The notes below the pieces were generated by a model that made no database searches, had not been told where the DNA came from, and worked only from the letters and a program-made list of their open reading frames with translations. From a virus: 24,365 nt of DNA. The stretch is from positions 1 through 24,365 of the IMG/VR virus record IMGVR_UViG_3300024259_000151. The stretch is one strand, 5' to 3'. A program made the translations under genes and the position numbers. This document shows, one piece after another, positions 869 through 24,317 of this stretch (within the stretch, counting starts at the first letter, position 1; each line of letters opens with the position of its first letter).

Positions 869-1267
869 TTATTTCCAACTACTCGGTATTTCGTTTGGCA
901 ACGGAATGCAAATTTCTATATTTATTGACGCATACATTCTGCATTTTTCGTAATATTCCTCTGCCTCTGCTGTATTTAGCTTTGCTGTCGATTTTGTGAT
1001 GATGTACCGTTTACCATTGATTATTTTATCTTCTAATCTTAAAAATTCTTGCTTCAAGATTTCGTGTACTTCGAGCGGAAAATAACCAGTTGCATCTGAA
1101 ATCATCTTGACAATAATCCCCCAGTAATAGCGATTTTCTTTGCTCGTTCTCGGGTTTCTTTTCTTTTCTACCGATATTTTAATCCCGAATTTAGCAGTTT
1201 CCAAAAGCCTTTTTGCATAACTCATCGGTTTTTCAATGTCGGATTGTGTTTTAATCGTGAATATCAT
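869..1267 (-). CDS. NinB/Orf-like recombination protein (probable)
   Basis: The 132-residue product has an early basic part (KISVEKKRNPRTSKENRYYW) followed by GIIVKMISDATGYFPLEVHE, like the R/K-N-x-x-YW block of NinB/Orf-type proteins. A C-terminal helical pair follows (TAKLNTAEAEEYYEKCRMYA) and PLPNEIPSSW ends it. These proteins help load recombinases on single strands. The gene sits in the recombination module. GGAG precedes the ATG. Assignment is by pattern; an unnamed phage family with a similar YYWG motif is the alternative. Confidence 0.6.
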   Translation of the reverse strand: MIFTIKTQSDIEKPMSYAKRLLETAKFGIKISVEKKRNPRTSKENRYYWGIIVKMISDATGYFPLEVHEILKQEFLRLEDKIINGKRYIITKSTAKLNTAEAEEYYEKCRMYASINIEICIPLPNEIPSSWK

Positions 1268-1318
1268 TTTATTTTCTCCTCTGTTTGGTATTATGCAAAA
1301 TCAAAATATTTTCCATCC

Positions 1319-1858
1319 CTACCCCTCTATTACTAATTTTTTTCTTGCTCTGAAATTGTATTTATTAAATTTCATAATTACAAACATTTCACGAATTCGG
1401 TCAACTACCCTGTGACCGTAAAGTTCTCCGAGTTGTTCTATATTCAAATTTGTCGTCAATATTGTAGAGCCAGCAAGCCCCTTTTTTATCCAATTATATC
1501 GGTCTTCAATAAGTGAACCGATAAAATAATGAGCGGTCTCGGTGTTTCGTTCGTCTCCAATATCATCGAAGAACACATTTTTACCACGCAAAACATTTTG
1601 ACGCCTCGCTATTGCTTCTGACTGGTCGGAGAAATTTCCGTTCATAACACGCAAATAATCATCGTAAATGCTTCTGCATTCGACAAATCGGAAATCATTA
1701 TAGTATTTTGCTATTAGTTCAGCAAGGTGTGTTTTGCCACAACCAACGACCCCCATAAATAGATAATGGAATTTGCTGTTATCCTTAATATCTTTGTGGA
1801 TATGCGACAATATTTTCGGATTTTTATTTTCGTAGTTTTTTGGTAGGATTAAATTCAC
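1319..1858 (-). CDS. DnaC-like helicase loader ATPase
   Basis: The start is GTG at 1858, chosen because AAGGAG lies five bases upstream. This 179-residue AAA+ protein has Walker A GVVGCGKT at 36-43, Walker B VFFDDI at 95-100, a sensor-like STILTTNLN, and a GHRVVDRIREM arginine-finger region. It is missing the N-terminal helicase-binding domain of E. coli DnaC, as common for short phage loaders. It would load the host or phage replicative helicase onto SSB-coated DNA. No helicase gene is in the window, so the host's may be used. Confidence 0.88.
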   Translation of the reverse strand: MNLILPKNYENKNPKILSHIHKDIKDNSKFHYLFMGVVGCGKTHLAELIAKYYNDFRFVECRSIYDDYLRVMNGNFSDQSEAIARRQNVLRGKNVFFDDIGDERNTETAHYFIGSLIEDRYNWIKKGLAGSTILTTNLNIEQLGELYGHRVVDRIREMFVIMKFNKYNFRARKKLVIEG

Positions 1859-2837: not shown

Positions 2838-3032
2838 TTAGTTATTCAAATAATTCAAAACAATTTTTTTAACATCTTCGGAAAGTTCGCTAAATCCATT
2901 CAACTGGTTACACACTGTTGAATATCTCATATTTGGTAAATAATTTTGCCAAAACCATTTTAACGAGTCTTTGTCTTTGCCATTAAGTTTTAGCTTTTTT
3001 TTCAGTTGTGAATACAATTCTTCATTTTTCAT
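2838..3032 (-). CDS. Small HTH-like regulator
   Basis: The 64-residue product starts with the residues shared with the first early gene (KNEELYSQLK). It continues SLKWFWQNYLPNMRYSTVCNQLNGF and LSEDVKKIVLNYLNN, which fits the last three helices of an XRE-type helix-turn-helix. Size and location suggest a Cro-like or replication-control role. GGAG lies seven bases before the ATG. Its stop is followed at once by the next start with no SD, so the next gene is probably coupled to it. Confidence 0.6.
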   Translation of the reverse strand: MKNEELYSQLKKKLKLNGKDKDSLKWFWQNYLPNMRYSTVCNQLNGFSELSEDVKKIVLNYLNN

Positions 3033-3043
3033 TTTCTCTCTCC
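2999..3043 (-). repeat. Duplicated leader/start block, copy 1
   Basis: The first 38 bases are identical to 6353-6390, and the SD flank also matches. They cover GGAGAGAG, the start codon and codons 1-11 of the HTH-like gene. Confidence 0.85.
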
Positions 3044-3056
3044 TTTATTCTGTAAC

Positions 3057-3085
3057 AACATTTATATTTACATTATTATTGTCAA
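3057..3085 (-). promoter_or_regulatory. Possible promoter before the HTH-like gene
   Basis: The minus strand has a perfect TTGACA (3085-3080) in the gap before the gene, but no good -10 at 16-18 bases; TATAAA lies only 13 away. The piece TTGACAA...TGTAAATA is shared with the promoter region at 828-855. Confidence 0.3.
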
Positions 3086-3094
3086 GAACTATTT

Positions 3095-3290
3095 TCATCT
3101 TTTTATGTAAAATCCACCGACATAAGTATAAGCTATCTTCCCTTGACCGTCTAATTCTCGTAATCTTCGCAAGATTTTAGTATTCTTTTTTTTTCTATAG
3201 ATTTCAATATTTCCGTAAATTCTTTAAATGCAATTTCTATTTGGTCAGCCCATTCTTGCTCTTTTTTTGTGGTTAAATTAGATTCATCTT
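3095..3290 (-). pseudogene. Back part of the interrupted gene (two -1 shifts at A-runs)
   Basis: After the A5 run at 3289-3293 the -1 frame reads DESNLTTKKEQEWADQIEIA and goes on as an amphipathic helix to an A9 run at 3186-3194. A second -1 step leads into TKILRRLRELDGQGKIAYTY and ends VGGFYIKR before a TGA at 3095-3097. No start codon or SD opens either piece. One extra A in each run would restore one protein of about 126 residues with a winged-helix-like end. This is either a broken gene, homopolymer error in the sequence, or recoding. Confidence 0.6.
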
Positions 3291-5597: not shown

Positions 5598-5731
5598 TTT
5601 CCCTCTCCTATTTTTTTTTGCAAATTTTCTTTCAAATGTTGCTTGTAAAACTCAATTTCCTTGTTCTGCCCTAAAATATGAAGCAGTAGGCAGACTATAA
5701 CCGCACCGAGTATAATTATTGCTATTCCCAT
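5594..5731 (-). CDS. Tiny membrane peptide 2
   Basis: A 45-codon ORF starts one base after the previous stop codon ends, with AGGAG six bases before the ATG, and overlaps the annealing-protein start as ATGA. The product has a transmembrane helix (MGIAIIILGAVIVCLLLHIL) followed by a basic-acidic helical tail (NKEIEFYKQHLKENLQKK). Single-helix membrane proteins in early regions can be superinfection-exclusion or host-takeover factors, but no family is recognised. Confidence 0.68.
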   Translation of the reverse strand: MGIAIIILGAVIVCLLLHILGQNKEIEFYKQHLKENLQKKIGEGK

Positions 5732-5732
5732 T

Positions 5733-5819
5733 TCAATCTCCTTTTTCGATTTTCTCGATTATTATTCCAATTATTCCAATTCCTATTCCGCAGATGCACA
5801 CCAATATTAATTCAAACAT
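5733..5819 (-). CDS. Tiny membrane peptide 1
   Basis: A 28-codon ORF starts at an ATG with GGGAG six bases upstream. The product begins MFELILVCICGIGIGIIGII and ends EKIEKGD. It is one long hydrophobic helix with glycine zipper-like spacing (GIGIGIIG) and a short charged tail. A second membrane peptide follows at once. It may be a small membrane-active regulator or holin-like peptide; I can support only that it looks translated and membrane-bound. Confidence 0.6.
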   Translation of the reverse strand: MFELILVCICGIGIGIIGIIIEKIEKGD

Positions 5820-5820
5820 T

Positions 5821-6144
5821 TCATTCTCCCTCTTTCAATTTTATTTCTAATTCTTCTGCCAACACATCTGTTTTTGTCGTTTCGCTGTTATCGTGGTACA
5901 TACAACAATAATCAATAGCCCAGCAATCATTCGGGCAGTTGCCATCATTTGGGTCGTCTGAATGAGGACAGTCATCTGGTGCGGTCATATCATCGTGTAA
6001 CATACTAAATATAATACTTCCCGCATCTTCGATTTCTGTTTTTTGCTCTTCGATTTCTGTTTTTTGCTCTTCGATTTCTTTGTGCAAATTTTCGATTATC
6101 TGCATTTTCTCGGTTAATAAAAATAATAAAGATTCTGTTTTCAT
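5821..6144 (-). CDS. Coiled-coil, cysteine-rich hypothetical protein
   Basis: The start is set at the ATG at 6144, with GGGGAG seven bases upstream and an ATGA overlap with the preceding gene; the frame itself opens earlier. The 107-residue product has a coiled coil made by a repeated EIEEQKT heptad (about residues 22-40), encoded by a 21-base tandem repeat. Then comes a cluster CPHSDDPNDGNCPNDC with YCCMYH, five cysteines and two histidines, that may bind zinc. An acidic helix ends the protein. I do not recognise the family; the cluster suggests a nucleic-acid or protein adaptor. Confidence 0.65.
   Translation of the reverse strand: MKTESLLFLLTEKMQIIENLHKEIEEQKTEIEEQKTEIEDAGSIIFSMLHDDMTAPDDCPHSDDPNDGNCPNDCWAIDYCCMYHDNSETTKTDVLAEELEIKLKEGE
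6027..6079 (-). repeat. 21-base tandem repeat inside a coiled-coil gene
   Basis: Units start at 6027 and 6048, with a partial third from 6069 (about 2.5 copies). It stays in frame and adds heptads EIEEQKT to the coiled coil, so its length could vary without breaking the gene. Confidence 0.85.
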
Positions 6145-6392
6145 TTTAACTCTCCCCTCTTCCATTCAATTTGCAATGGTTGACCGTTTTTTGTGTCAAA
6201 CTGCGACACCTCGTAATAATTATAGCCGTCAGAGTTCTCTTCAATCCCACCACTACAATCGTTTAGGATTTCTTCTGCATAATTCCATAAATTTGCAAAA
6301 TAATTTCCACCTTTGTTGTTCAGCTTACCTACTAATTGTTTGAAAATTTCTGTTTTCAGTTGTGAATACAATTCTTCATTTTTCATTTTCAT
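6141..6392 (-). CDS. First early gene, hypothetical protein
   Basis: The 83-residue product begins with the same 11 residues (KNEELYSQLK with its start) as the HTH-like protein at 2838-3032, then diverges. It continues IFKQLVGKLNNKGGNYFANLWNYAEEI and ends in a more polar region with EENSDGYNYYEVSQFDTKNG. The first of two possible ATGs is used because GGGAG lies seven bases before it. It is the first gene after the structured leader. Its stop overlaps the next start as ATGA. Function unknown. Confidence 0.7.
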   Translation of the reverse strand: MKMKNEELYSQLKTEIFKQLVGKLNNKGGNYFANLWNYAEEILNDCSGGIEENSDGYNYYEVSQFDTKNGQPLQIEWKRGELK

Positions 6393-6403
6393 TTTCTCTC
6401 TCC
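6353..6403 (-). repeat. Duplicated leader/start block, copy 2
   Basis: Bases 6353-6390 are identical over 38 positions to 2999-3036, and the SD-containing flank (TCTCTCC on the plus strand) also matches after an extra 6-base ATTTTC unit. The block holds the ribosome binding site, start codon and first codons of a gene. Beyond it the two genes are unrelated. Confidence 0.85.
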
Positions 6404-6414
6404 CTTTTGTGAAT

Positions 6415-6675
6415 AAGTGATGGTGACTTTCCTCTTGCCACCCTTTGTTATGAACCTCGTACTATGCTACATATCCCTTGCTTATGCTACCTTGACTGAC
6501 CAGGCATAAGTGGTTACACATATCTCGTGACATCGTTCCACCTACTATGTAGTCTTATCAGGACTAACCTGTGCTCTACCCTATGTTCGAGCTTTCAACT
6601 ATATTTCGGTCACCGCCTACGCGTGTTCTCGCTCAGATGACATTTTTCGTTTACTCTGTTCCGCCACCATCACTT
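6415..6675 (-). ncRNA. Candidate structured non-coding RNA or long structured 5' leader (about 260 nt)
   Basis: No gene fits this stretch on either strand. I count 107 G+C in the 240 bases from 6421 to 6660 (about 45%), against about one third in the genes around. Its ends, AAGTGATGGTG (6675-6665) and CACCATCACTT (6425-6415), pair perfectly over 11 bp. Inner helices include TTATGC with GCATAA (6509-6504 / 6487-6482), TAGTC with GACTA, GCTC with GAGC, and CACGC with GC(G)GTG. A promoter-like region ends just before it and an SD follows just after, with no terminator between. GAGGAAAGTC near the 3' end equals the RNase P RNA CR-I decamer, but other RNase P parts are missing. Strand is inferred from the promoter and the operon direction. 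Confidence 0.6.
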
Positions 6676-6685
6676 TTTTCACTCT

Positions 6686-6760
6686 ATTTTTTAAAGACAA
6701 TTCAATTTATGGTCAAGGGGGTTTTGTTGTCAAGGAAAAAGTTTAATTTAATTTAATTTA
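6686..6760 (-). promoter_or_regulatory. Tandem promoter with UP-like AT tract before the structured RNA
   Basis: On the minus strand an AT tract of TTAAA repeats (about 6741-6765) is followed by TTGACA (6733-6728) with ATAAAT 17 bases later (6710-6705). A second TTGACC (6716-6711) follows, with TAAAAA 17 bases later (6693-6688). Starts from the second would be near 6680, a few bases before the first paired base of the structured element. It follows the late terminator directly, so early transcription most probably begins here. The -35 boxes are good, the -10 boxes imperfect. Confidence 0.6.
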
Positions 6761-6796
6761 TTTTATAATTGTAGTGTTGGTGCGGTTTGGTGACAT

Positions 6797-6831
6797 AAAA
6801 AAAGACGCCTTGGGGAGAGTGCCAAAGCGTC
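6797..6831 (-). terminator. Rho-independent terminator of the late operon
   Basis: On the minus strand GACGCTTTGG (6831-6822) pairs with CCAAGGCGTC (6813-6804) over ten positions (one G-T), with an 8-base loop, followed directly by seven Ts (6803-6797). It lies just after the endolysin stop and separates the late and early units. Confidence 0.9.
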
Positions 6832-9536: not shown

Positions 9537-9548
9537 TTTTACCGCCCT

Positions 9549-10091
9549 TTATATTATTATTTTATCGCCGTTTTCATCAATTATGTAATCAGAAGTTTCG
9601 TCAATCATATAATCGATTGTGTCTTCTCGTGTCATATTTGATATTGATTGCACCAATTCTTTTTTTGCAAATTTCAGCTTTATTTTTTGACCTATTTCTA
9701 ATTTGTGGAGTTGGTCAAACGAAATGTCGCTCATCAATGCAACATCTTCAATGAACAATCCGTCTGTTCCATCGGTGGTATTGACTCGCAAACTTAACAT
9801 TGTTTCACTTTCCGAAATTCTGTTAAAAAAATCAATTAAAACTCTTATCTGTGAATAGTCGCTTGCTAATATATTCAATAATTCAACTTCAATTTCAATT
9901 CGATTTCCGAGAAACTTTTCAACTATTTTTCGGTCAATATTTTCTTTTCTAAGATAAATAGGTTTATATGTTATTTTTGCATCTGCTGTCGAGTTGCTTA
10001 CTGATTGACCGTAAAAAGATGCTGACGCTTCATAAGTGCCACTTACTGCAAACTTAAAGTTTATTCCCCCATAGCCCCAAACACTATTCAT
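9549..10091 (-). CDS. Tail tip or upper-fibre protein, unassigned
   Basis: The 180-residue product starts NSVWGYGGINFKFAVSGTYEA, is predicted mostly beta in the first third, then has a charged central region (IDRKIVEKFLGNRIEIEVELL). It ends in a repeated acidic motif, DYMIDETSDYIIDENGDKI, a duplicated YxIDE unit found at ends of many phage tail proteins. It begins one base after the hub-like gene ends, with GGAGCG as SD. I do not recognise the family; a structural role at the tail tip is inferred from place only. Confidence 0.55.
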   Translation of the reverse strand: MNSVWGYGGINFKFAVSGTYEASASFYGQSVSNSTADAKITYKPIYLRKENIDRKIVEKFLGNRIEIEVELLNILASDYSQIRVLIDFFNRISESETMLSLRVNTTDGTDGLFIEDVALMSDISFDQLHKLEIGQKIKLKFAKKELVQSISNMTREDTIDYMIDETSDYIIDENGDKIII

Positions 10092-22989: not shown

Positions 22990-23754
22990 TCAAATATGGA
23001 GCGGATGGGTCGGATTCGCACCGCCTTTCTCTAACTGGTCGCCAGAGCCTCGCTTATGAGCATCCGCTTGTAATCTCTTTTCGCCTTTATACATCCCGGC
23101 ATTCATTTCGTCTATCTTTGAAAATGGTAATATTGGTACTGTTATCTTGCATGATTTATCTATTAGGTATATGTATCGAATTTGAAACCCTGCCAAAATC
23201 TCTGCATTAAGTTCTTTTATCGCATTCGACACCGTTAAATTCTTGGGATTATATTTCTTAGCCACTAACGGAACACACCCCATATTTAAACTCATACGGT
23301 GAATAATTTTGCCATCAGGTAATTTTATGATGCTTTTATTCTCTTTTATTTGAGTAAGATAAAAACCACTTGCCCTATAAATAACCCCATCGCCACATTG
23401 AGTTCCATCTGCAAAACTAACTATCCACTTTATATGCCCAGCATTCTTTTTTATTAGTTTCATACAAATAGATATACACCTGCTCTCTGAGTTTTTTGGC
23501 AAGTATTCATCAAAAGCCATTCTGTTAAGTTCAAGCATTTCGTTCCATTTTGTGTCATTTACAAGACCAAGCATTCTTCTCTTACTTATCGGATTGCCAA
23601 ATTGTAGGACACCGTGTAGTCTGCCATCCAAGAAAGCCCCGAAGTGTATTTTACTTGTTGGTGCAACCATACCTGAATAATGATGTTTCCTAACAAAGTC
23701 ATTTGCTATCTTTGCAGGAATAACCTTTACTCTGATGTCTTTAGCTCTACCCAT
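22990..23754 (-). CDS. mom: Mom-family DNA adenine modification protein
   Basis: The 254-residue product matches the Mom family, GNAT-fold proteins that in phage Mu convert adenine to an acetamido (methylcarbamoyl) form and protect DNA from host restriction. Visible family features are HHYSG near residue 24, HFGAFLDGRLHGVLQFG, ELNRMAF, NSESR near residue 90, and the block FADGTQCGDGVIYRASGF. It overlaps the ParB-like gene, suggesting that the two work together. The last ~25 codons are unusual: the DNA there folds into a tRNA-like shape and encodes a KGGANPTHPL tail. That tail is beyond the conserved enzyme core. The start at 23754 is taken because the conserved N-terminus follows directly; there is no strong SD, so translation probably depends on the upstream gene. 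Confidence 0.88.
   Translation of the reverse strand: MGRAKDIRVKVIPAKIANDFVRKHHYSGMVAPTSKIHFGAFLDGRLHGVLQFGNPISKRRMLGLVNDTKWNEMLELNRMAFDEYLPKNSESRCISICMKLIKKNAGHIKWIVSFADGTQCGDGVIYRASGFYLTQIKENKSIIKLPDGKIIHRMSLNMGCVPLVAKKYNPKNLTVSNAIKELNAEILAGFQIRYIYLIDKSCKITVPILPFSKIDEMNAGMYKGEKRLQADAHKRGSGDQLEKGGANPTHPLHI
22997..23067 (-). other. tRNA-like element embedded in the 3' end of the mom-like gene
   Basis: Read on the minus strand, the element starts GCGGATG and ends CATCCGC-T-CCA. This gives a perfect 7-bp acceptor-like stem (8 bp counting the flanking A-T) and a CCA end, about 71 bases in all. A T-arm-like piece GGCGG-TGCGAAT-CCGAC precedes the 3' stem: four of five pairs, with the loop differing from TTCRANY at one base. 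The D-arm is weak (CTC/GAG) and lacks GG. The anticodon arm is only CTGG-CGA-CCAG, so no normal 7-base anticodon loop forms. It is not a functional tRNA as read. It could be a tRNA mimic, a processing signal, or a relic of an attachment site. Confidence 0.5.
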
Positions 23755-24317
23755 TCGCTCACTATCCTAAATAATGCGTTCCCATTTGAATTTGTGTTAT
23801 TATATGTTTCAATATCTATATTTTTTTTAGATAAAATTAATGCTGATTTTATCTGTTCAGCCTGCACATCTGCCACAATAAATGCCATTTGCTGAAATGG
23901 CTCTTTATCACCATCTGGAAGAGTGAAATCCTCATCGCAATCATCAGGTCTTAAAAACTCAAACCCAAATTCATAATCGAATTCGAGTTCTTTCAATTCT
24001 GCTAATTCGATGTCAAGTAAAGGAAAATCCCAAATAGCGAAGTCACTTGTTTTATTATCTGCTATCCGGAATGCTTTAATTTGTGCAGGTGTAAGGTCAT
24101 TAGCTTTTATACAGGGTACTTCTTCCAATCCTAACTTTAAAGCAGCCTTGAGCCTTGTGTGTCCCGTTACAATGACATTTGAGTCGTCTATGACTATCGG
24201 CACTTTGAATCCGAACTCCTTTATTGAAGATGCAACATGATTTACTGCACCGTCATTTATACGAGGGTTATTATGATATGGGATTATCTCATTGATTTTT
24301 TTGTTTATTATTTTCAT
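23727..24317 (-). CDS. ParB/Srx-like N-terminal domain protein
   Basis: This 196-residue protein has the ParB N-domain pattern at about residues 5-95: a start like KINEIIPYHNNPR, then VIVTGHTRLKAALKLG near residues 48-63, then CIKANDLTPAQIKAFRIADNK. In phages this domain often sits beside or is fused to DNA-modifying enzymes, and here it overlaps a Mom-type gene by 28 bases. The acidic C-terminal part (about 100-196) resembles nothing I know. It lacks the long C-terminal DNA-binding half of chromosomal ParB, so plasmid-type partitioning is unlikely. An SD-like GAGG lies before the ATG. I infer a role linked to DNA modification rather than segregation; the domain call is firm, the role is not. 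Confidence 0.85.
   Translation of the reverse strand: MKIINKKINEIIPYHNNPRINDGAVNHVASSIKEFGFKVPIVIDDSNVIVTGHTRLKAALKLGLEEVPCIKANDLTPAQIKAFRIADNKTSDFAIWDFPLLDIELAELKELEFDYEFGFEFLRPDDCDEDFTLPDGDKEPFQQMAFIVADVQAEQIKSALILSKKNIDIETYNNTNSNGNALFRIVSEWVELKTSE

Follow-up and report, generated by a model that had tools for sequence, protein, structure and literature searches.

A candidate folded leader RNA between the late and early genes of a small phage

Results

Gene order around a large non-coding block

The window, that is, the whole stretch of DNA analysed, is a phage record 24,365 bases long in which every recognised gene lies on the minus strand. Read in that direction, the genes on the late side (terminase, portal, capsid, tail and endolysin) are followed by the block studied here, and past the block lie early genes including those for an ERF-like protein, an SSB, a DnaC-like loader and others. 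At the border itself the order is endolysin gene (7233-6853), terminator, AT-rich tract, promoter, block, Shine-Dalgarno (SD) site and a gene of 83 aa (Table 1). Contig L089, from the same phage, joins both ends of the window with ~70 nt extra between them. Because L089 bridges these ends, the genome is either a closed circle or terminally redundant.

The capsid protein was ~31% identical to those of Pelagibacter phages HTVC026P, HTVC111P and HTVC112P and of phage DSL-LC06, and the ERF-like protein ~60% to those of Lactobacillus delbrueckii phages. Judged by sequence, the named phages nearest to the window are distant. A mosaic relative (L003) has structural genes 99.8% identical to those of the window phage and carries divergent versions (32-35% identity) in place of the Mom-like gene and the tape-measure region. 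In the window, the Mom-like DNA modification protein is encoded at 22990-23754 (minus strand; PHROG E 1e-50) and adjoins a ParB_N-like protein (23727-24317). Separately, 38 bases at 2999-3036 recur without change at 6353-6390. They span the starts of the early genes at 2838-3032 and 6141-6392, and both encoded proteins have the N-terminus MKNEELYSQLK. Such identity suggests that the sequence was duplicated recently or serves as a site of recombination.

The preliminary description had called the block the only large non-coding stretch of this genome, and our analysis agrees. No coding potential was found in its six frames, the minus-strand ORFs all being of 27 aa or fewer and without a good SD site. 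Two other gaps were checked, of which that at 3033-3272 is mostly coding in appearance. The gap at 5598-5820 (minus strand) contains two tiny genes of 28 and 45 aa, each with an SD site and a hydrophobic N-terminal stretch; ORF callers may leave this gap empty. The G+C content of the block was 45.2% compared with 35.3% for the genome, and 0.8% of the 261-nt genome windows were as G+C-rich. The G+C richness first given as 107 of 240 bases was thus upheld, with a recount of 108 of 239 bases between the arms.

Table 1. Coordinates of the block and its flanking features in the window.
Feature	Position	Strand	Basis or remark
Intrinsic terminator ending the late/lysis transcript upstream, GACGCTTTGGCACTCTCCCCAAGGCGTC + T7	6804..6831	-	10-bp stem, best in the genome
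AT-rich tract above the -35, UP-element-like	6736..6770	-	Sequence; inferred
Sigma-70-type promoter, TTGACA-18-TAAATT	6704..6733	-	10/12 consensus positions
13-mers CCTTGACCATAAA (6706-6718) and CCTTGACAACAAA (6723-6735), 17 bp apart over the -35	6706..6735	-	Repeat search
P1 5' arm	6663..6682 (6675-6663 + 6682-6678)	-	Pairing analysis, shuffles
Block, candidate leader RNA	6415-6675	-	~260 nt, non-coding
Leader interior	6428..6662	-	Predicted fold, shuffles
Best-supported internal hairpin, GUAGGUGG...CCACUUAU, inner stem AUGUC/GAUAU	6506..6545	-	Pair probabilities 0.80-0.98
GAGGAAAGTC, RNase P CR-I look-alike	6425..6434	-	Word comparison; judged chance
P1 3' arm	6409..6427 (6427-6415 + 6413-6409)	-	Pairing analysis, shuffles
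SD site of the first early gene, GGGAGAGAG	6396..6404	-	~5 nt past the leader
First early gene, 83 aa	6141..6392	-	Start codon at 6392

Transcription and translation signals flanking the block

The genome has one convincing terminator, and it lies directly upstream of the promoter of the block. Other terminator-like sites were weak and close in number to chance expectation, and the interior of the early operon held weak ones only. Several promoter matches of comparable score occur in the genome; that at 6733-6704 stands alone at its score within the gap, and transcription is expected to start near 6697. A tandem promoter with an AT tract had been described at this site. The first promoter was borne out, whereas the second combines a good -35-like repeat (TTGACC) with a poor -10. 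The word CCTTGACNAYAAA has exactly two matches in the genome, at 6706-6718 and 6723-6735, and these two copies are possible operator half-sites or regulator sites.

The SD site lies just downstream of the block and, in line with the first description, no terminator was found between the block and the first early gene. Since the promoter is directly upstream and no terminator precedes the gene, any transcript from this promoter would carry the block as its 5' leader. Relatives of the 83-aa protein were not found, and it had no Pfam or PHROG match. The SD site fell outside predicted pairing with the transcribed sequence of the block, and paired weakly with the extreme 5' end in one MFE fold.

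These signals bear on the proposal, made at the outset, that the block is a large switch controlling the early operon, that is, a riboswitch or autoregulatory leader responding to a ligand or a protein. Its placement within the 5' UTR that precedes the first early gene and its size as a folded leader would suit such a role. However, no expression platform was found, neither a terminator nor an SD-masking helix following the block, and the Rfam models gave nothing at the gathering threshold and only one chance snoRNA down to E = 10. Because the SD site is free and a terminator hairpin is absent, an attenuator or SD-masking riboswitch is unlikely. Nothing specific to a switch emerged, and we consider this reading quite improbable.

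A closing helix joins the ends of the block

The ends of the block pair perfectly over 11 bases (AAGTGATGGTG, 6675-6665, with CACCATCACTT, 6425-6415), exactly as first reported. Extended inward, this pairing forms the inner part of a helix, P1 (AAGTGATGGTGGC with GTCACCATCACTT), of 13 pairs including one G-U. The outer part adds five pairs (GTGAA with TTCAC) past a short internal loop, for a total of 18 pairs. When the 298-nt leader was dinucleotide-shuffled 2000 times, its two 40-nt ends never shared an 11-bp Watson-Crick helix, which places the pairing beyond chance. Arms of 11 bp at a spacing of 150-330 nt were found at two further sites in the genome, both AT-rich and palindrome-like, and P1 is therefore notable for its place rather than unique.

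The whole leader folded more stably than its shuffles in two comparisons (z -2.8, 1/200; z -2.6, 3/200), with coding-region windows of the genome reaching similar or lower z values. No folding signal was found in the interior alone (z -0.8), 30 of 150 shuffles folding equally well. The folding signal of the leader is carried by the closing helix. The block had been introduced as a structured RNA, a description that its position and closing helix support but its interior does not; the interior fold as drawn is not reliable apart from the hairpin at 6545-6506. The predicted fold energy was -70 kcal/mol for the minus-strand RNA versus -57.5 kcal/mol for the plus strand.

Seen as DNA, the arms form terminal inverted repeats that are nearly perfect (14 nt, 93%), and the block might instead work at that level, either as a small insertion bounded by such repeats of 11-14 bp or as an origin, packaging or regulator-binding site. 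An interior of different composition without a folding signal of its own is consistent with this, as are the single copy and the lack of kin. Against it, the repeats fall exactly between promoter and SD site, a flanking target duplication was not seen, and a second copy was absent from the phage and from the collections searched. We regard a DNA element as unlikely but keep it among the candidates, since only the end repeats stand out and the interior folds at shuffle level.

The RNase P-like word is at chance level

The preliminary description had observed that GAGGAAAGTC equals a segment of conserved region I (CR-I) of RNase P RNA, which is correct, and that AACAGAG.AAAC resembles region II (CR-II), and from this it raised the idea of a rearranged or decoy RNase P-like RNA. 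The 10-nt GAGGAAAGTC was indeed the longest word common to the block and E. coli rnpB, but 8% of shuffles equalled or exceeded this length (p 0.08). The score of the CR-II-like stretch was equalled or bettered by 276/400 shuffles, and the best ungapped matches to conserved regions II-V were reached by 255-397/400. No candidate for the P4 3' strand that would pair with AAAGUCACC (bulged U) was found in the RNA. The Rfam RNase P models gave no match at the gathering threshold or at E <= 10 in the normal order, a circularly permuted order not being scored. The block is thus like bacterial RNase P RNA in this one word and unlike it in having neither P4 pairing, nor CR-II to CR-V, nor any model match. 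The absence of CR-V and of a P4 partner had already been held against a true enzyme, an argument that the shuffles and the missing strand uphold. With a chance-level word, no P4 partner and no Rfam match, we reject the RNase P-like reading as extremely improbable.

Search for relatives of the block

The RNA had been called previously unassigned, in agreement with the Rfam result. No tRNA or tmRNA was found. All other copies of the block (L004, L005, L089 and L093) were identical and represent the same contig, and they thus offer no compensatory changes to count. Searches with blastn gave only chance matches outside the block or in the AT-rich promoter flank among phages, and none among plasmids. 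Exact and gapped patterns in IMG/VR matched, besides the phage itself, coding or unrelated DNA, and a pattern search in GTDB gave none. With nhmmer and a one-sequence covariance model, no match rose above noise in ~160 loci linked via the ERF-like and endolysin genes, or in HTVC026P, DSL-LC06, Ld17 and BhaS-171; the best outside match (13.1 bits, E 0.06) was a spurious match to a terminal arm. The one-sequence model found none across 385 genomes of one class. Five short blastn matches were obtained in 395 genomes of one phylum, the best of which (E 2.5e-5, one genome) lay inside a coding gene. The check for homologs proposed at the outset thus yielded no relative in the phage, plasmid, IMG/VR and GTDB collections or the neighbour-gene loci, with the qualification that a model built on one sequence has low sensitivity and pattern scans depend on exact words, and distant relatives may be missed for these reasons. 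At present the block is an orphan, a candidate known from a single phage.

Discussion

The block as a proposed cis-acting leader

We tentatively prefer to read the block as the folded 5' leader of an early, possibly genome-long, transcript that acts in cis, ahead of a free RNA and then of a DNA element. The layout of terminator, promoter, block, SD site and gene, with no later terminator, supports this reading, as do the G+C content in a non-coding stretch, the closing helix and the better predicted fold of the minus strand. That the block is transcribed and acts as RNA is something we infer from these features. Transcription would begin at ~6697 from the promoter at 6733-6704, and the first ~290 nt would fold into an RNA closed by the 18-bp helix, which would end 4-5 nt before the ribosome-binding site. 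The polymerase would then continue into the early genes, as no terminator follows the block. Since all recognised genes are on the minus strand, and this promoter and the one convincing terminator frame a nearly complete circle, such a transcript could span most of the circle.

Two modes of action can be envisaged for this leader. It may act on the elongating polymerase, as a protein-free antiterminator. Alternatively, the helix may close the 5' end of the mRNA, where RNase III-type cleavage would leave that end protected and the ribosome-binding site free. An antiterminator would have few targets besides Rho, because the terminator-like sites of the early operon are weak.

Put-type antiterminators suppress downstream terminators via the zinc-binding domain of the RNAP beta' subunit. 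The put RNAs of phage HK022 are ~70 nt with two stem-loops and act without proteins, right after the early promoter and over 10 kb (PMC9378689). Like put, the block is a predicted structured RNA that follows a promoter at the start of an early phage transcript and would be read through. Unlike put, it spans ~260 nt under a single long closing helix, and no strong terminators come after it; any relation in sequence was examined through Rfam alone. The lack of homologs, an interior at shuffle level and a length far above that of put all speak against a cis-acting leader. The original account is supported in part: a leader between late and early genes without an Rfam match is kept as the best reading, whereas the interior showed no folding beyond that of shuffles and no homolog was found in the collections searched.

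It is doubtful that the block represents a new class of large leaders modifying host RNAP over the whole ~24-kb circular transcript, or a free RNA abundant during infection. If the RNA does keep polymerase going or process the transcript, it would explain how a small phage can express all its genes with what seem to be a single main promoter and a single terminator, and would place a new RNA on the very short list of protein-free antiterminators.

Comparison with free RNAs, processed leaders and retrons

A cis-acting leader competes with a trans-acting one, in which the leader would be released from the early transcript by cleavage at the closing helix, accumulate and target host or phage functions. 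The block begins and ends where the helix does, ~15 nt past the predicted transcription start and 4-5 nt short of the SD site, as in free structured RNAs. Precedents are GOLLD and ROOL, large free phage RNAs that often lie near tRNA islands, GOLLD often exceeding 800 nt (PMC12286853). The block resembles them as a candidate large phage non-coding RNA of no known function, and differs from them in that none of the Rfam models matches it and no tRNA is present. No terminator ends the block, however, no homolog was found in the collections searched, and complementarity of at least 13 nt to the phage's own transcripts is absent. Antisense action on phage mRNA was rejected on this last ground, and a free RNA seems on the whole rather unlikely, if second in our preference.

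Leaders processed by RNase III, such as the lambda N leader and T7 early mRNA, have a long double-stranded stem by the ribosome-binding site of an early gene. The long stem of the block likewise adjoins such a site, but it spans ~235 nt rather than a short loop, and cleavage is hypothetical. In retron ncRNAs, terminal inverted arms close a 150-250-nt RNA upstream of a gene, and the block is similarly closed by terminal inverted arms ahead of a gene. Unlike the retron arrangement, however, the adjacent first early gene matches nothing in Pfam or PHROG, and no reverse transcriptase was found in 28 of ~40 genes scanned with Pfam or in the genes scanned against PHROGs.

Leader-like stretches in other contigs

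Comparable stretches were seen elsewhere. In L036, related to the window by one gene, a promoter, a strongly folded leader, an SD site and a start codon follow one another at ~9540-9760 (plus strand), the same layout as that of the block; this leader has a closing stem (CTTTTTATT/AATAAAAAG) and no Rfam match. In phage DSL-LC06 (L099), 755 nt of non-coding DNA separate the late from the early genes (573-1327), also without an Rfam match; within this gap, the stretch at 820-960 folds under a closing stem of 12 bp (z -2.7). No convincing sequence similarity was found between the block and the DSL-LC06 gap, L036, L013, L133 or L139 (lowest p 0.02 in seven comparisons). Long, strongly folding non-coding gaps without Rfam matches were present in L013 (1590-1910), L139 (3243-3829) and L133 (363-849), with z values against mononucleotide shuffles of -6.3 for L139 and -5.4 for L013. 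As a suggestion only, leaders of the kind seen in the window, L036 and DSL-LC06 may be widespread among small phages and so far undescribed. In L106 (~1100-1500, reverse strand) and L104, a phage gene is preceded by a G+C-rich intergenic stretch of ~270 nt that forms several strong stems; this stretch contains tRNA-like words, but no tRNA was found in it.
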